Of a DNA stretch of 37,500 bases, positions 9,068 through 37,375 are shown one piece after another (position 1 is the stretch's first letter; every line of letters begins with the position of its first letter). Origin of the DNA: a bacterium ADurb.Bin212 (GTDB lineage: Bacteria > Patescibacteriota > UBA1384 > XYA2-FULL-43-10); assembly GCA_002070055.1 (NCBI GenBank), contig MWCM01000013.1, forward strand, positions 1-37,500, given 5' to 3'. Both the position numbers and the translations under genes were made by a program. The notes below the pieces were generated by a model. It was not told the DNA's origin and did no database searches. It saw only the letters and a program-made list of their open reading frames with translations.

Positions 9068-9868
9068 TTGGAGCCTGTGCCTGGAGGATATTTGTCGAGA
9101 CATCTCGAACCAGAAGAACATGAAAGTGCAGATGCAAGCAATTCAGAGGATGATTATGGTTTAAACCATCCACTTTTTGATGGTGTGGAAACCGATTATC
9201 GAAAAGAGCAGGGATTTATCTTTGAAAAAGACGGACAGTCAATTGAGGCCCAATACCTTCCTTTTTCCAGAGATGAAACCGACCGAATGCTTCTCAGGCT
9301 ACGATCTGCCCGCAACGAGGTTGATTCCCCAAACCTGGTTGAGCTAATCGAAAAGATGATAAAATTCTATTCTACCGGAGCTTATAATCTTGAAAAACTA
9401 AAAATCCAAAAAGATGAAAATATCTTGGACATTGGTGGTCTCGCTGAGTCAGTCGGTGCTTCAATTGTATTCAATCCGGATATCGAATGCGAGGTAGATA
9501 GTATCGAGCCTTCGGGCAGAATACTGTCTTCAGGAGATATTGCGAATCTCTCTACTGTCGTGAAAATATTACATGAGCTAGGGCACCTAGAAAGGTCTGG
9601 CGAGGAATCTGTCGGTGCAAGAAGGAGATATTTAAAAAGAGAGAGCATAACCGAGTCGGAAGCGGAATATATATTACGCTCCGAGAGAGATGCCTGGGCT
9701 TTTGCTCTGACGAAAATTAAGCCGTTTTTAGGAAAAGATCAGCGGGGGGCCGTTCTTAACTTCATACACCGACACTCTCTAAGTTACTATAGCGACAACA
9801 TTCGAAAACAAATTGCACCCAAATGGCGTCTGATCTTGCCACATCTGTTGGAGTCTTTTTCCGAATAA
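9068..9868 (+). CDS. Cytoplasmic HELGH putative zinc metalloprotease
   Basis: 266 aa. The zinc-protease motif H169-E-L-G-H173 sits in a helix ('VVKILHELGHLERS'). About 35 residues later 'SESEAEYILRSERDAWAFAL'-like sequence supplies several Glu residues, one of which could be the third metal ligand; the ERDAWAFAL segment resembles the E-x-x-A-xx-FA helix of ImmA/IrrE-type gluzincins. The N-terminal 60 residues are acidic and probably disordered. There is no signal peptide or membrane helix. The start is TTG, supported by AAGGAG at 9056-9061; no good in-frame ATG competes. A strong terminator begins at the stop codon, so it is likely monocistronic. Metal binding is probable; protease activity and any ImmA-like anti-repressor role are inference. 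Confidence 0.65.
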   Translation: MEPVPGGYLSRHLEPEEHESADASNSEDDYGLNHPLFDGVETDYRKEQGFIFEKDGQSIEAQYLPFSRDETDRMLLRLRSARNEVDSPNLVELIEKMIKFYSTGAYNLEKLKIQKDENILDIGGLAESVGASIVFNPDIECEVDSIEPSGRILSSGDIANLSTVVKILHELGHLERSGEESVGARRRYLKRESITESEAEYILRSERDAWAFALTKIKPFLGKDQRGAVLNFIHRHSLSYYSDNIRKQIAPKWRLILPHLLESFSE

Positions 9869-9902
9869 ACCAAAAAACCACTAAAAAAGTGGTTTTTTGG
9901 TT
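9868..9902 (+). terminator. Intrinsic terminator after the HELGH gene
   Basis: A 15-bp perfect stem (9868-9882 with 9888-9902) with a 5-base A loop. The right arm itself contains six T in a row. It overlaps the stop codon of the HELGH gene. Confidence 0.75.
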
Positions 9903-9910
9903 AGCTAAAT

Positions 9911-10110
9911 GTTTTGAGCCTTGAGGCTAAAGTACTTGAAGTGCGATTCGAATACTCGTTTCTCAAGGCCCGGATAGTAAATCCCGGGACTCGTGAAAAA
10001 TCTAAACCTGATAACGCACTCGGTATAGATTTTGGCCTTTGGACGGCTAGCTTGTCCTCGTGCCGGAAAACTTATTGTAACAAAGTTTAATGTTATGTGT
10101 CAAAGGTCAG
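9911..10110. ncRNA. Unassigned structured intergenic region, possible non-coding RNA
   Basis: About 270 bases between convergent genes with no convincing reading frame. It is locally more GC-rich than its surroundings and dense in inverted repeats: GCCTTGAG (9918-9925) with CTCAAGGC (9962-9969); CCCGG (9969-9973) with CCGGG (9984-9988); AAAATCTA (9997-10004) with TAGATTTT (10026-10033); GGAC (10041-10044) with GTCC (10054-10057); and GGCCTTTG (10034-10041) with CAAAGGTC (10101-10108, one G-U). ACTCG occurs three times. It does not match tRNA, tmRNA, SRP or RNase P landmarks that I know. The strand is undetermined. Confidence 0.35.
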
Positions 10111-10138
10111 ACTTGGGGAAAACTGGCAATAAAAGAGT

Positions 10139-10669
10139 CTAATTCCTGAGGTAGTTTTGCAAAAGATGTAGTGTTTCTTTGTCTGAGAGTATTTTTTTAA
10201 ACCAGAAAGTATATTTCTCTGGATTATCTTGGATATTTTCAGATATTTCTTCGAGATTAAGCCAACAGTGATCCGATATCTCTTCCGAATTAGGCTCTAT
10301 AACGCCATCATATTTCCCGGCAAAGATACAGTCATATTCATTTTCTATTAAGCCGTTTGGGAAGGCGGCCCTATAGATGAAGCAACCAAGCTTAACTAAT
10401 GTGCAATCGAAACCCATCTCCTCTTTTAATCTTCGATGGACCGCGACATTGTAAGTTTCTCCGGGGGCCGGATGGCTACAAACTGTATTGGTCCAAAGAC
10501 CTCCAGAGTGATACTTTTTAGGGTTTCTTTGTTGGAGCAATAGTTCATTATCTTTGTTAAAAACAAAAATTGAAAAGGCTCTATGTAGCAACCCTTTCTG
10601 GTGTGCTTCAAGCTTCTCCATTTCGCCGATCTTACGATTGTTTTTGTTAACTAATATTACTTTGTCCAT
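10139..10669 (-). CDS. idi: Isopentenyl-diphosphate delta-isomerase, type 1
   Basis: 176 aa, normal length. It converts IPP to DMAPP, the primer for polyprenyl chains. Seen: 'GLWTNTVCSHPAPGE' with the catalytic Cys64; Nudix-type helix 'AVHRRLKEEMGFD' (76-88); and 'IENEYD' (108-113), which holds the second catalytic Glu; also 'LLLQQRNPKKYHSGGLW', typical of type 1 enzymes. Cytoplasmic and metal dependent. It is the last gene of a minus-strand set with a polyprenyl synthase and YjbQ, 66 bases after the synthase. No Shine-Dalgarno is evident. No mevalonate or MEP pathway gene is visible in this window, so the source of IPP is unknown here. Confidence 0.93.
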   Translation of the reverse strand: MDKVILVNKNNRKIGEMEKLEAHQKGLLHRAFSIFVFNKDNELLLQQRNPKKYHSGGLWTNTVCSHPAPGETYNVAVHRRLKEEMGFDCTLVKLGCFIYRAAFPNGLIENEYDCIFAGKYDGVIEPNSEEISDHCWLNLEEISENIQDNPEKYTFWFKKILSDKETLHLLQNYLRN

Positions 10670-10735
10670 TGCGTCTGTTCTTTGCTATCATCAAAAAACT
10701 ATCACCGCATACTACTTATTACATATTGTTCACTG

Positions 10736-11806
10736 TTAGTATTCTCTTTTAACCATATAATCAGCGATTCTTAACAAAAAATCCTTACCCTCTTTGTTAA
10801 GTTTCATTCCTTGCATCGATTTGTAAGATCTTTTTACGAGGTCATCAGCCATCTTTTTCGATTTTTCCAGCGAACCTGTTTGAATAATTATTTTGCGGAC
10901 AATCTCTAACCCCCTAAGGCTAACTCTCTTGTTGCCCAAGTAAAGCAGGATGGTTTCTCTTTGTTTTTCTGTGCAATTCTCCAGAGCGTCTAATATTAAA
11001 AGAGTTTTTTTACCTTCTTTCAAATCGCTGGTTACAGGTTTACCAAGCTTTTCTTCGCTTCCAAACATGCCTAAAATATCATCCTGAATTTGGAAAGCGG
11101 TGCCTAGCGGGTATGAGTATTTCTCTAGGGCTTTAACTTTTTTGTCGTCCGCTCCGGCCAAAATTGCCCCAATTTTAATTGGTCCATCAAATGTGTAAGG
11201 CACAGTTTTCATTTCGTGAACTTTTATTACATCATCTATAATCACATCTTCTCTTATCTCAGATAATATGTCTAAAGCCTGGCCGTAGCCCTCGATGATG
11301 TATATTCTGTTCATCTCCAGTAGGGCCCGTTTTACAAACTCTGACTTAAAATTCCTTTCTGCCAAGATTTCGTTGCTCATTCCACAAGCGATATCTCCAG
11401 CTAAAATTCCCAAAGATGACCCAAAGCTACTACTGTTGGTTTTTCCTTTGAAGCGGTCTTCTGCTATCAGTCGGTAGCTTTCGTGAATTGTTGTGCCACC
11501 TCTTCTTAAATTATCGTTGTCCATGATATCGTCATGTATCAAGAGGTAGGTTTCGGCCATCTCCATACTCATTGCGGCAAGTAGCGCCTCTTTTTTATTT
11601 TTGCCGCCATGGGCAACGTAACTGTAAAATAAAAGAGCGGCCCGAATTCTCTTTCCGCCTCTTAGCGTTAAATCATAAATATGATCCATAAGCTCTTTAG
11701 CGTGAGGAGAAACTTTTGCCGCCTCTCTTACCTTTAGGTCTAAATATTTTTTTAGTTCCCTATCTAAAATCTTTTTGAATTTCGCAAGGTCCTCTTTGGC
11801 TCCCAT
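10736..11806 (-). CDS. Polyprenyl diphosphate synthase (probable geranylgeranyl type)
   Basis: 356 aa. It adds IPP units to an allylic diphosphate. Both aspartate-rich motifs are present: D92-D-I-M-D96 in 'LIHDDIMDNDNLRRG', and 'FQIQDDILGMFG' near residue 248, with 'RGGKRIRAAL' at 49-58 for diphosphate binding. The first motif lacks the two-residue insertion of bacterial farnesyl synthases, and Tyr87 lies five residues before it. In the known family rules this pattern favours a C20 product, as in archaeal/actinobacterial IdsA, but chain length needs assay. GAGGA precedes the ATG, two bases after the yjbQ stop. The product could feed the UbiA-like protein encoded nearby or longer carrier lipids. 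Confidence 0.9.
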   Translation of the reverse strand: MGAKEDLAKFKKILDRELKKYLDLKVREAAKVSPHAKELMDHIYDLTLRGGKRIRAALLFYSYVAHGGKNKKEALLAAMSMEMAETYLLIHDDIMDNDNLRRGGTTIHESYRLIAEDRFKGKTNSSSFGSSLGILAGDIACGMSNEILAERNFKSEFVKRALLEMNRIYIIEGYGQALDILSEIREDVIIDDVIKVHEMKTVPYTFDGPIKIGAILAGADDKKVKALEKYSYPLGTAFQIQDDILGMFGSEEKLGKPVTSDLKEGKKTLLILDALENCTEKQRETILLYLGNKRVSLRGLEIVRKIIIQTGSLEKSKKMADDLVKRSYKSMQGMKLNKEGKDFLLRIADYMVKREY

Positions 11807-11808
11807 GT

Positions 11809-12249
11809 CTAGTCCTCTAATATCTTTACTAATATTTTGCGATTATCCCTCGGCCCATCCAATTCTACCAGTCCAATGTCTTGGAATTGACCCTTGGTCA
11901 GCTTGCCATCTTCAATGTCCAGAATTATTGTTTGATTGGTCATCATCTGTCTTACGTGGCTCGGCCCATTTATATCGTCTGTTTTGCACAACCTACTTGG
12001 GTGCAGAGCACAGCGATGCTTGTATTTTGTGCCATCATCGTCAACTATCTTGGTTAACTGGTCAATAATATCCTGGCATAAATTTACCTCGGCTGATTCT
12101 TGCAAGGTTAAACCGAGGGTTGTGTGCAAAGAATAGGCGAACAAGGTGCCATTTTTAACCTTGCTATCTTTAAGCACTTTTTCGATGTCTTTGGTTATTA
12201 GAATTATCTCCGCATGCTTTTTGGTGTTGTAAGACAATACTTTTTTCAT
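11809..12249 (-). CDS. yjbQ: YjbQ/UPF0047 family protein
   Basis: 146 aa from the chosen ATG. Conserved family features: 'SLHTTLGLTLQE' near residue 40, 'YKHRCALHPSR', 'NGPSHVRQMM', and the C-terminal 'TKGQFQDIGLVELDGPRDNR' with the invariant Q-xx-x-x-E-xDGPR pattern. Members are small trimeric proteins reported to have weak thiamine-phosphate synthase activity; their physiological role is uncertain. The reading frame extends nine codons upstream to a TTG, but the ATG at 12249 has AGGA seven bases before it. It is the first gene of the isoprenoid set, with a promoter just upstream. The functional connection with the prenyl genes is unexplained. Confidence 0.88.
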   Translation of the reverse strand: MKKVLSYNTKKHAEIILITKDIEKVLKDSKVKNGTLFAYSLHTTLGLTLQESAEVNLCQDIIDQLTKIVDDDGTKYKHRCALHPSRLCKTDDINGPSHVRQMMTNQTIILDIEDGKLTKGQFQDIGLVELDGPRDNRKILVKILED

Positions 12250-12280
12250 TTTTTTATCCTGATTTATGATAAACAATCTA

Positions 12281-12368: not shown

Positions 12369-12647
12369 ATGGATTATTTAGAATTAAGTCGCTTATTTAC
12401 GATTGTCGCGAGCATCGTAATAACTTTAGGTCTCTATAGGCAGATTGTAAAAATTTGGAAAACAAAAAGTGCGAAAGATTTCAGCTTACTCCTGATAGTT
12501 GCTTTGTTTATTAACGAAATTGCGTGGCTAAATTATGGGCTTGCTCTTGGTGAGTGGCCTATTATTTTTATTGGAGTAATCAATATACCAGCGATAGTTA
12601 TGGCATTTTATGGTTTCTTAAAGTATGGAATTAAGAAAGACATTTAA
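12369..12647 (+). CDS. SemiSWEET-type small membrane transporter (PQ-loop family)
   Basis: 92 aa with three predicted membrane helices (about 8-26, 38-57 and 63-84), the SemiSWEET size. 'GLYRQIVKIWKTKSAKDFSL' carries the PQ-loop-like turn followed by K-S-A-x-x-x-S, and 'NEIAWLNYGLALGEWPIIFI' matches the second conserved block (W-x-x-Y-G). Such proteins dimerise and let sugars diffuse through the membrane. The ATG at 12369 is preceded by GGAGGGAGA and is preferred over an upstream in-frame non-ATG start at 12330. The last 23 bases overlap the next gene. The substrate is not predictable here. Confidence 0.82.
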   Translation: MDYLELSRLFTIVASIVITLGLYRQIVKIWKTKSAKDFSLLLIVALFINEIAWLNYGLALGEWPIIFIGVINIPAIVMAFYGFLKYGIKKDI

Positions 12648-13485
12648 AAATAAGTTGTTCTTCCACATATTTAGAGGTCTTTTGACCTCTTTTGGGGCTG
12701 TTGCTGAAGCTTTGGCTTTGTCAATTTTGTTTGATATCAGGTTGACTTTCGATTTTATAATACTTGTGATATGTATTTCCGGTATCATATATTTTTATGA
12801 TTTTTTCCGTGAACTTAAGATACCTGAGGCCACAACAGATGGTGAAACAAAAAGAAAAGGCAAATACAGTCGCTACTACGCACTCCCATTGTTGCTATTT
12901 ATATTATATATTATAATTATTTCGCTATACGGTAGTACTCCAAGCATTATTTTTTCAATCTTTTTGATATTGGTCGGTGTGTTGTATGACCCGATATTTA
13001 AAAGAATTACGAAGATAATTCCAGCTTTTAAAGATTTTTATGTGGCTTTTTGCTGGTTGTTGTTACCTGTTTTTATGATAATTTATTACCAGAAAGATCT
13101 CTCCTTATTGGTTGTCGTGACACTTATATTTGTTTTTTCTAGAGATATTGTCAACGCATTTTATTGTGATATAAAAGATATTTCTAATGATAAAAATGCA
13201 CAATTGAAAACCTATGCAGTCATTAACGGGGCTTCAAATACAATATATGTTTTACAGTGGGTTAGTATTTTTTCTGTTTTGTTATTAACAATAAGCACGG
13301 TTATTGGAATACTGCCACTTTTGTCAGTATCTTTAGTAATTCCTGTGATATTAACCTCTTTATTGATGAATTATTCTCAGAAAATTCAAAAATATTCACC
13401 GTTTTTTGTAGAGATAGAGTATTATTTCTGGTATTTGTCGATAATTTTATTTGGTTTGATTTTAAAAGGACAAATTGGATTTTGA
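12625..13485 (+). CDS. UbiA-family prenyltransferase-like membrane protein
   Basis: 286 aa with eight or nine predicted membrane helices. UbiA enzymes move a prenyl chain from its diphosphate to an acceptor and use two Asp-rich motifs. The second is intact: 'DIKDISND' (D-xx-D-xxx-D), near residue 182. The first is degenerate: 'IYFYDFFRE' around residues 55-63 keeps the middle Asp, but the usual leading N-D and final D are I-Y and E. It may therefore have a different substrate or reduced activity. It starts inside the SemiSWEET gene and its end overlaps the kinase start, so three genes are translationally linked. A nearby prenyl synthase could supply its donor. The acceptor is unknown. Confidence 0.75.
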   Translation: MELRKTFKNKLFFHIFRGLLTSFGAVAEALALSILFDIRLTFDFIILVICISGIIYFYDFFRELKIPEATTDGETKRKGKYSRYYALPLLLFILYIIIISLYGSTPSIIFSIFLILVGVLYDPIFKRITKIIPAFKDFYVAFCWLLLPVFMIIYYQKDLSLLVVVTLIFVFSRDIVNAFYCDIKDISNDKNAQLKTYAVINGASNTIYVLQWVSIFSVLLLTISTVIGILPLLSVSLVIPVILTSLLMNYSQKIQKYSPFFVEIEYYFWYLSIILFGLILKGQIGF

Positions 13486-15204: not shown

Positions 15205-15399
15205 ATGTGGTTTGGTTTGGGGTTGGTTCTGGTTGGAATATTACTTCTTCTTAATAATCTCGGCATCATTAAAGGCGACACTTGGGATTATATTTGGCCT
15301 GCGGTGATAATCTTGGTTGGACTTAGCATGCTGTTCAGACGCAATGATTGTTGCGCTCCAAAGGTGAAGGTGGTTAAAGAAGATAAAAAAGAATCTTAG
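15205..15399 (+). CDS. Small two-helix membrane protein, LiaF-TM/DUF5668-like
   Basis: 64 aa. Two membrane helices (about 3-20 and 29-44) are joined by a short loop 'NLGIIKGDTWDYIWP'. That loop, with 'W.yiWPaviIlvGl', is typical of the membrane part of LiaF-like proteins. The tail is basic and contains a Cys-Cys pair (48-49). Full LiaF proteins continue into a cytoplasmic domain that controls a LiaRS-type kinase; this one stops after the membrane part. It follows the histidine kinase gene by 68 bases, so a link to the kinase is possible but unproven. GGAGG precedes the ATG. Confidence 0.7.
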   Translation: MWFGLGLVLVGILLLLNNLGIIKGDTWDYIWPAVIILVGLSMLFRRNDCCAPKVKVVKEDKKES

Positions 15400-22507: not shown

Positions 22508-22651
22508 ATGCAAGCTTACTGTGTAAAATGTCGCGAGAAGGTTGACATGCAAAATCCTGAAGCTATTACTATGAAAAATGGTAAACCAGCTACTCGCGGT
22601 GTCTGCCCAAAATGTGGCACAAAGGTTTTCCGTATTGGCAAAGCTGCCTAA
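22508..22651 (+). CDS. DUF5679 small zinc-ribbon protein
   Basis: 47 aa. Two CxxC pairs, 'YCVKC' (C5, C8) and 'CPKCG' (C36, C39), frame a short basic segment with 'ITMKNGKPATRGVCPKCGT'. This is a treble-clef or zinc-ribbon layout, and the sequence fits DUF5679, a family I recall from Patescibacteria. Its function is unknown; a nucleic-acid or ribosome contact is possible from its size and charge, but this is inference. Strong ribosome site (AAGGGAGGTG), strong promoter and its own downstream hairpin make it a well-defined single-gene unit. Confidence 0.85.
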   Translation: MQAYCVKCREKVDMQNPEAITMKNGKPATRGVCPKCGTKVFRIGKAA

Positions 22652-34957: not shown

Positions 34958-36163
34958 ATGATAAAAAGATTTTTCAAGCAGAATATTAAAGCCAAGTTAG
35001 TCGCGATATTAATCGCTTTGATCGCTTGGGTTTTTGTATCCTCAAATCAATCTTTAATGGGTAAATTTCCTAATCAAATATCAGTTAAGGTCTCGAATCT
35101 TTCTACTGATTATGTTGCTTTTTTGGATGACGAAGACGTAGAAATCTATTTAATGGCTGAACCTTCTGTCTGGAACACTCTAAGCAAAGATTCATTTGTT
35201 GCAACAGTAGATGTGGCGGGCTTAAGTGAGGGCACTTTTGATTTGGAAGTAAAGGTGTCGTCCAGTGTTCAAGGTGTTCAAATAACCAGAGTTGAGCCAT
35301 CAAAAGTCTTTGTCAACATCGAAAAAATTGTCACCAAAGATCTGCCGGTTAATGTTAAAATTGATGGAGACCCTGCTGATGGGATGGTGGTGGGTGAAAC
35401 TAGTGCCGATATAGAAAATGTTAAAGTTAGAGGGCCGGAAAGTTTGATAAAAATGGTCAGTGAGGCTACTGCCGAGGTCAAATTAAACGGTGAAAGTAAC
35501 GACTTTACCAGAGAAACAACTTTATCTGCATTATCAGAAAATAATTCAAAATTAGATCAGATTACTTTTCTTCCGGACAAAGTTATTGTCAGTGTCTCAA
35601 TCGTTAAAGGTGGGAATAATAAGACCGTTGGCGTAAAATTGAACGCAAAGAATAGTTTGCCGGATAATTATTATATTTCAAGAATTACCTTGTCTCCATC
35701 CACGGTTGATATTACAGGCCAAAGGAGTGTTTTGTCTGGGATCAATTACATCGAAACTGAATCATTTGACCTGTCATTAATATCTTCAAATACCTCAAAG
35801 GATTTATTGTTAATTCTACCCAGCGGTGTAGCTTTACAAAAGGGGTCGGCTCCATCCACCAGGGTTAATATCGAGATAGCCAAGATGTCACTAGGCACGT
35901 CGATTGTGCCAACAATTTCCTATACCAATTTATCACCTGGGCTTAGAGTAGTTTCAACTGATCCGGAGAGTGTAAAAATAACTGCTTCTTCTGCCGATCA
36001 AAATTTGCTAGTTTCTGCTAATTTTCAATTGGAGATTAATCTATCGGGTTTAGGAATAGGAAATCACATAATTCCCATCTCTGCCGAGATGATTAAATCA
36101 TCTGGCAACCTGGTAATAAATAGTATTTTGCCCACCTCAATCAAAGTTGTTATATCTAACTAG
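34958..36163 (+). CDS. cdaR: CdaR-like regulator with YbbR domains
   Basis: 401 aa. N-terminal membrane helix (about 12-28) followed by about four extracytoplasmic YbbR-type repeats: each has a 'P-x-x-V-x-V' strand near its end and 'VKVRGPESLIKMVSEATAEV' (about 150-170) is the family's clearest block. In Gram-positive bacteria CdaR binds CdaA through the membrane region and modulates c-di-AMP production. Its position directly after cdaA supports the same pairing. No catalytic residues are expected. Confidence 0.87.
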   Translation: MIKRFFKQNIKAKLVAILIALIAWVFVSSNQSLMGKFPNQISVKVSNLSTDYVAFLDDEDVEIYLMAEPSVWNTLSKDSFVATVDVAGLSEGTFDLEVKVSSSVQGVQITRVEPSKVFVNIEKIVTKDLPVNVKIDGDPADGMVVGETSADIENVKVRGPESLIKMVSEATAEVKLNGESNDFTRETTLSALSENNSKLDQITFLPDKVIVSVSIVKGGNNKTVGVKLNAKNSLPDNYYISRITLSPSTVDITGQRSVLSGINYIETESFDLSLISSNTSKDLLLILPSGVALQKGSAPSTRVNIEIAKMSLGTSIVPTISYTNLSPGLRVVSTDPESVKITASSADQNLLVSANFQLEINLSGLGIGNHIIPISAEMIKSSGNLVINSILPTSIKVVISN

Positions 36164-36211
36164 AAGTTGATACTATATTATCTCATGCACGCTTTTGTAT
36201 TTTCAAAGCTA

Positions 36212-36240
36212 TTGACATGATTTTATAGGTGTAGTAGAAT
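36212..36240 (+). promoter_or_regulatory. Promoter for the LysM-CHAP gene
   Basis: Perfect TTGACA (36212-36217), exactly 17 bases, TAGAAT (36235-36240), 25 bases before the ATG. This uncouples the wall hydrolase from cdaA-cdaR. Confidence 0.65.
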
Positions 36241-36265
36241 ACTAAAGTGCGCAGGATTTACAACT

Positions 36266-37375
36266 ATGGCACTTCACAATGAAACCGACCCTTTGCCTAA
36301 AAAGCCTAGTGTCGAAAAAACCAAAAAATTATTTCAAACAATTCTAAAAATAAAACCCAATTTAGTTATATTATTACATAAACTGGCAAAAGCCTTTTTT
36401 TTGTTGGGCTCTAAACTGTCTCGTTTCTTTTTGCACTTTTACCAAGAGATTATCCAAGCGATAATGGTGCTTAACAAATTCTTTAGCTCAAAAAATAACC
36501 ACTTGCCTCATTACTCAATTTGTTTCATTGCATTAATAGTAATCGCCTCAAATCTAATAGTAAAGTACGCTAAGGCCGATTTCTCAGTTTCTTTCACCGA
36601 CCCAGCCAATGAGATTGCTATAGCCACAAACACAGATATTTACACTCCGATCATCCGCAATGATGGAATGATAGCAGATAAAGCATATCAGAATTCATCT
36701 GACGCATTTATTGCTGTTTCAAACTCCATCGATACGAATATTACTCAAAGAGAGGAACCGTTGCCGGATAATTCGCAAAATACAGTCAGCTATGTAGTAA
36801 GAAATGGTGATAATCTAACAACCTTGGGTTGGAAATTCGAAGTTAAGCTAACAACTTTGATGTATTTAAATGATATTGATAACGCGAACTTGGTTCGTCC
36901 CGGTCAAAAACTTAAGATCCCGCCTAAAGGCTATGAGGTATCCGCTTCCGCAATTGCTAAGAAGCAACAGGAGAAGTTAGCTCTAAGTAATAGAAACACA
37001 GTCATAAGAAGCTCGAGCTCAACCAGAAACACTAGCGGCTCAAGCAGAACCGTTAACTATACTGCCGGTAGCTCCAAGAACGGATATCCATATGGATATT
37101 GCACCTACTACGTTGCAACAAAAAGATATGTTCCGACAAATTGGGGTAACGCCAAGAATTGGCTGAATTCTGCTCGAAGAGCCGGATATTCTACCGGTAG
37201 TCAGCCTGCAGTAGGAGCAATTGGTGTGACTCCTGAATCTTGGTGGGGGCATGTTGTCTTTGTGGAGAGCGTTAATGGCAACATGGTAACATTTTCAGAG
37301 ATGAATGCTGTTGGTTGGGGCAGAGTTAGCCGTAGAACTTTGCCGGTCTCCTCATTTAGGGGTTTTGTTTATTAG
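36266..37375 (+). CDS. LysM and CHAP domain cell-wall hydrolase
   Basis: 369 aa. A basic 80-residue N-terminus precedes one membrane helix (about 82-101), so the protein is probably anchored with its domains outside. One LysM domain (about 175-219, 'SYVVRNGDNLTTLGWKFEVK', 'NLVRPGQKLKIP') binds peptidoglycan. A Ser/Asn-rich linker leads to a CHAP domain (about 265-369) with catalytic C279 in 'YGYCTYYVA' and H329 in 'WWGHVVFVE'. CHAP enzymes cut peptide or amide bonds in peptidoglycan. It follows cdaA-cdaR but has its own promoter. The long N-terminus before the anchor is unusual for a secreted hydrolase. Confidence 0.9.
   Translation: MALHNETDPLPKKPSVEKTKKLFQTILKIKPNLVILLHKLAKAFFLLGSKLSRFFLHFYQEIIQAIMVLNKFFSSKNNHLPHYSICFIALIVIASNLIVKYAKADFSVSFTDPANEIAIATNTDIYTPIIRNDGMIADKAYQNSSDAFIAVSNSIDTNITQREEPLPDNSQNTVSYVVRNGDNLTTLGWKFEVKLTTLMYLNDIDNANLVRPGQKLKIPPKGYEVSASAIAKKQQEKLALSNRNTVIRSSSSTRNTSGSSRTVNYTAGSSKNGYPYGYCTYYVATKRYVPTNWGNAKNWLNSARRAGYSTGSQPAVGAIGVTPESWWGHVVFVESVNGNMVTFSEMNAVGWGRVSRRTLPVSSFRGFVY

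Follow-up and report, generated by a model that had tools for sequence, protein, structure and literature searches.

6S RNA is about 200 nt long, has abundant structure and is transcribed from its own sigma-70 promoter to a terminator. The candidate described here resembles it (RF00013) in being structured and, by prediction, about 200 nt long, with its own sigma-70-type promoter and a terminator; it differs in having three domains rather than a rod with a central bubble, and in giving no match to RF00013. Like tmRNA, RNase P RNA and the small SRP RNA (RF00023, RF00010 and RF00169, respectively), it is structured and we read it as independently transcribed. Unlike them, it has no SRP match, and the genome's genes for tmRNA (C3:8947-9341, also numbered L155:8947-9341) and RNase P RNA (C3:48800-49123) lie on another contig. 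The best match to RF00013 anywhere in the genome (10.2 bits, E 7.1) is elsewhere than the candidate, and nothing matched RF00169 above the cut-off (best E 2.9); inspected by eye, the best weak SRP match had no apparent SRP gene. The genome is thus without a 6S RNA or a small SRP RNA above the Rfam cut-off, these being either divergent or lost.

A further comparison is with the GC-IGR surveys, which in the excerpts cited here report many orphan intergenic candidates (PMC6429828, PMC11109978). Ours is an orphan of this known kind, an intergenic structured RNA gene: like those described in the excerpts, it is long, GC-rich, structured and without a family, in an AT-richer genome. The named candidates in the same excerpts rest on a comparative consensus structure, whereas here there is a single sequence (PMC6429828, PMC11109978). 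We consider that the minus strand probably carries a small RNA gene in its own right, specific to this lineage. The case is built from sequence, and this is the best explanation because promoter, folding strand, composition and terminator agree.

The spacer and its neighbours

The window, by which we mean the whole 37,500-nt stretch of DNA analysed, corresponds to the entire contig G000:C13; the genome, 1.22 Mb in 74 contigs, is rated 100% complete. The intergenic spacer is the 270 nt at 9869-10138. As the initial annotation had it, this lies between convergent genes, a plus-strand ORF of 266 aa (9068-9868) ending at 9868 and the minus-strand gene for isopentenyl-diphosphate isomerase (IDI, a NUDIX protein; 10139-10669) ending at 10139. 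Both genes point into the spacer, which argues against a riboswitch or leader belonging to either, and ARAGORN reported nothing.

The 266-aa ORF gave no significant match in Pfam and NCBIfam searches. It carries an HELGH motif, which is zinc-peptidase-like, and may resemble peptidases of the ImmA/IrrE type. Weak relatives (35-39% over part of the protein) occur in 2 of 60 related genomes, one of which, G001, has two copies. IDI is the final gene of a minus-strand run, UPF0047 - polyprenyl synthetase - IDI (10139-12276). The IPP isomerase of this run is type I, and a gene for a UbiA-like prenyltransferase lies nearby on the opposite strand (12625-13485). Among named records, the IDI protein best matches one from Candidatus Berkelbacteria (L063, 59%); a second Berkelbacteria record appears lower among the matches (L080, 55%), the ranks between being filled by many groups, archaea included. 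A search of viral contigs with the IDI protein found no relative.

By the standards of this genome the spacer is both long and GC-rich. Convergent gaps (28 pairs) have a median of 64 nt, and only four reach at least 270 nt: the candidate's own, that of tmRNA and two holding small ORFs read by eye. G+C content is 46.7% in the predicted RNA body versus 38.9% in the window, and spacers of at least 40 nt (n=111) average 31.8% in a 223-kb sample made up of the window and ten further stretches of the genome, with ORFs called crudely. Among the 31 spacers of at least 150 nt, 9869-10138 ranks sixth in G+C. Structured non-coding RNAs tend toward long, GC-rich intergenic regions, according to the excerpt cited here (PMC6429828). 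By eye, other long spacers of the window are filled by small plus-strand ORFs, one encoding a membrane protein with a charged tail (15206-15399) and one a CxxC...CxxC zinc-ribbon-like protein (22508-22651), and both have Shine-Dalgarno-like sites, unlike the candidate spacer.

Promoter, fold and terminator on the minus strand

The promoter, which the initial annotation had missed, lies on the minus strand at 10103-10074 and consists of TTGACA (10103-10098), an 18-nt spacer ending in TGT, which makes an extended -10, and TACAAT (10079-10074). It scores 11/12 against consensus and ranks first among 14 sites in 4 kb; an equally good site arose on one strand in 0.2% of 3000 shuffled versions of the spacer (P 0.002). 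It is known as a sequence match, in a part of the spacer with 32.4% G+C; the whole window contains 4 sites of this grade, where shuffles give 1.02, and the expected start position, 7 nt past the -10 box, lacks a purine. The promoter scan reported none on the plus strand within the spacer.

Ahead of the terminator, the predicted body of the RNA takes up about 165 nt of the minus strand (9903-10067), its 5' end near 10067 being placed from the -10 box to within a few nucleotides. Folded from 10067 to 9902 it reaches -50.2 kcal/mol (z -3.96, 0/200 shuffles as good), and a refold of 9903-10067 gives z -3.83 (0/300). The plus strand folds weakly (z -1.64, 13/200; repeat z -1.66, 18/300). Against a background of 226 window tiles, noisy at 20 shuffles each, one tile reached z <= -3.9 and three reached z <= -3; with body and terminator folded together the minus strand reaches z -7.1. 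The idea that the region folds better than shuffled sequence is therefore upheld for the minus strand, and only weakly for the plus. The initial annotation, which left the strand unassigned, had set the span at 9903-10138 (minus z -3.11, 0/200; plus z -1.44, 16/200). That span needs shifting, since 10068-10138 comprises the promoter with the spacer upstream of it, and 9868-9902, the terminator, falls just beyond its edge.

The fold is predicted to have three domains. Helix P1 (9985-10060; 10060-10059 and 10057-10054 paired with 9990-9985, pair probabilities about 0.9) encloses hairpin P2 and a small 3-bp hairpin (10047-10045/10037-10035); a rival closing helix would be AGCUA/UAGCU near 10052-10048 and 9907-9903. 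P2 (9997-10033, pair probabilities 0.7-1.0) has 12-nt arms, 9997-10008/10022-10033, and the loop GAGUGCGUUAUCA; as a hairpin picked after folding it gives z -3.31 by itself (1/200 shuffles as good). A short hairpin, GGAU/AUCC, follows at 9972-9984 (0.96-0.99). Then comes the long hairpin P3 (9916-9971, 0.78-1.0), made up of 10 bp, a 4x4 internal loop, 7 bp, 3 bp and the loop UCGCAC, with z -4.86 by itself (0/200), again for a hairpin picked after folding. The inverted repeats first noticed in this region are thus real, as 9868-9882/9888-9902, 9997-10008/10022-10033 and 9916-9971.

Real, too, is the pair reported across about 70 bases, AGTGCG/CGCACT at 9940-9945 and 10015-10020, with 69 nt between its arms. 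In the RNA this places AGUGCG in the P2 loop (10015-10020) opposite CGCACU in the P3 loop (9940-9945), so that a 6-bp kissing contact between the two is possible, provided that two weak pairs of P2 and an A-U pair of P3 open. Loop-loop runs of at least 6 Watson-Crick pairs occur in 27/1000 shuffles and 35/748 window tiles, and because that is some 3-5% of controls the support is modest and the contact a lead. The triple ACTCG on which the initial annotation had leaned is indeed present (9954, 9989 and 10018), but it is uninformative, since 96.6% of 1000 shuffled regions hold some 5-mer three times.

At the 3' end stands a bidirectional terminator hairpin, 9868-9902, of 15 perfect pairs around a 5-nt loop (arms 9868-9882/9888-9902), with a T run inside the 3' arm on either strand. 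It would serve the candidate RNA and the convergent plus-strand gene in common. A generic terminator scanner did not report it, the hairpin not fitting the scanner's tail rule, and no other terminator was reported between the IDI stop codon and 9902. Both neighbours need a terminator anyway, so the promoter is the sole independent evidence.

How unusual is it to find the two signals together? Defining a unit as a promoter of at least 11/12 followed at 60-300 nt by a terminator, all in one spacer, we found whole units in 2 of the 111 spacers, the candidate's and one at L154:16159-16311. Shuffled spacer sets hold 0.03 units on average and 0/200 of them hold two, a null that is too lenient, as the terminators required by neighbouring genes are shuffled away with the rest. 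Moreover, of the 11 promoter-terminator pairs in the 223 kb, 9 extend beyond any single called spacer; with that, and with 4 sites of this grade versus 1.02, the units are less rare than the shuffles suggest. We read them as enriched in spacers, which is not proof.

Searches for relatives

At the gathering cut-off, Rfam 15 gave 0 matches in the whole window, and relaxed searches brought up terminator-hairpin and chance matches alone; the earlier failure to place the region in a known RNA class is thereby confirmed by covariance-model search. A DNA search of 61 genomes returned, at E <= 0.001, only the body itself, which is single copy in its own genome at that threshold. At E <= 1 there were matches in 41/61 genomes which, besides the locus, are 15-31 nt long with a best E of 0.007, as expected of chance; of two inspected, at L002 and L003, the latter sits within an ORF. 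For a tracrRNA, whose anti-repeat would match a CRISPR array in the same genome, the own genome offered the locus alone at E <= 0.001 and, at E <= 1, three isolated 15-16 nt matches besides. As a yardstick we took the RNase P RNA of this genome (324 nt), which the same search recovered at E <= 0.001 in 35/61 genomes, its own included; among these are 8 of the 10 nearest genomes, those of the same family or order. Since RNase P is seen in 35/61 and the candidate is not, the latter is no housekeeping RNA conserved at that rate, a comparison limited by RNase P being longer and under strong constraint. Plasmids, phages and a search of viral contigs for two exact patterns gave nothing.

We also built a covariance model, R1, from a single sequence entered as two nested copies; it is in effect a one-sequence model, and its reach is limited for that reason. 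In 55 genomes of the class and 379 of the phylum it found only the candidate. P3 being near-palindromic, the model picks it up backwards as well within the window, on the plus strand at 9916-9971 (21 bits). With looser settings, 39 relatives yielded two matches besides self. One, in G007 (L144, E 7.6e-4), was rejected because it overlaps on the other strand an ORF that looks FtsX-like, a label read from sequence alone, and has 31% G+C and many broken pairs; the other, in G028, is at chance level (E 8.96). With filters off, 10 IDI or neighbour loci gave 17 weak matches (best E 0.74), and there was none at E <= 1 in 47 of the 80 loci of IDI protein matches or in 185.5 kb of the own genome. Because scoring is confined to candidates that come through a permissive prefilter, homologues conserved in structure but not in sequence may have escaped it. 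The conservation suggested as a check thus yielded no credible homologue, by DNA or by the one-sequence model.

The nearest relative, G001, of the same family, keeps the order UPF0047 - polyprenyl synthetase - IDI. Despite this conserved isoprenoid operon the candidate RNA is absent there: what follows IDI is another spacer, about 174 bp long, and a hairpin of its own (L044:2099-2138) stands about 100-140 nt past the IDI stop.

Readings of the locus and a second candidate

What would happen at such a locus? RNA polymerase would start near 10067, from the sigma-70-type promoter just behind the IDI operon, and transcribe some 165 nt that would fold into the P1-closed domain with P2, the short hairpin and the long P3. 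Transcription would then stop at the two-way terminator, 9868-9902, releasing a transcript about 200 nt long, in which the loops of P2 and P3 may be locked by their kissing contact. Several marks of a stand-alone small RNA gene are seen here, namely a promoter match on the folding strand, an intrinsic terminator at the 3' end and a fold better than controls. Most likely the folded RNA would act in trans, holding a protein or presenting its loops to other RNAs. Base-pairing small RNAs typically lack extensive self-structure, as the excerpt cited here puts it (PMC6429828), and on that remark our guess leans to a scaffold or protein-binding RNA over a simple antisense regulator. Pairing with the start regions of 34 genes in the window gave a best z of -2.2, which is not significant for 34 tests.

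The main rival reads the stretch as a 3' UTR belonging to the mRNA of the IDI operon, the transcript running on to 9868-9902 and its folded tail stabilising the message or yielding a 3'-UTR-derived small RNA, with the promoter perhaps adding to it or belonging to it. The body does lie on the same strand directly downstream of IDI, with no intervening terminator reported before 9902, and the G001 operon, in the same gene order, ends in that hairpin of its own past the stop. A mere 3' UTR, though, has no need of the near-consensus promoter that separates the IDI stop from the folded body, and in both length and G+C this spacer exceeds most others; we regard the 3' UTR as rather unlikely.

The initial annotation went further than an RNA gene and proposed a new non-coding RNA. 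The gene is supported by folding strand, promoter, terminator, G+C and lack of a credible ORF; the new class is not, as no homologue was found that could give covariation, and several homologues with covarying pairs, the mark of a class, were not found among the 55 class, 379 phylum and 39 relative genomes. That the candidate belongs to an RNA class of its own, confined to a narrow small-genome lineage, with a P2-P3 kissing fold and a role such as scaffold or polymerase regulator in a genome without a recognised 6S RNA, seems to us unlikely; the lineage in question is suggested by the Berkelbacteria record that is the best named IDI match.

It is improbable that the spacer is decayed and functionless, with fold and promoter arising by chance and a working shared terminator at its end. 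In favour of such a spacer are the absence of conservation from every searched genome, the z near -3.9 reached by 1/226 tiles, and a loop-loop pairing and an ACTCG repeat that are near chance; against it, promoter, folding strand, composition and terminator, each uncommon in controls, agree on one strand. Least credible of all, and very nearly to be dismissed, is a small plus-strand protein gene in place of an RNA: the region had been called gene-free, rightly, for its longest ORF (58 aa, 9914-10090, plus strand) starts with TTG and has no Shine-Dalgarno sequence by eye, no Pfam match and no reported plus-strand promoter, and transcription arriving from upstream should end at the terminator.

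If the small RNA gene is real, even a genome as small as 1.2 Mb devotes space to structured RNA specific to its lineage. The candidate is well delimited by promoter, body and terminator; were there no transcript, nothing notable would remain. The small RNAs of candidate-phyla bacteria appear to be little studied: our literature search turned up no paper on both the Candidate Phyla Radiation and 6S RNA and none on both Berkelbacteria and small RNA; one paper mentions Patescibacteria and 6S RNA, each once.

The same genome holds a second orphan candidate, on the plus strand at L154:16159-16311 (about 36159-36311 of G000:C1). It has no Rfam match at the gathering score, and a relaxed search gave chance matches alone. 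A perfect 12/12 promoter is followed by a rod-like body of about 85 nt and then by a strong terminator hairpin. The body, closed by CAAGGTTGG/CCGACCTTG, folds with z -3.6 (0/200 shuffles as good).
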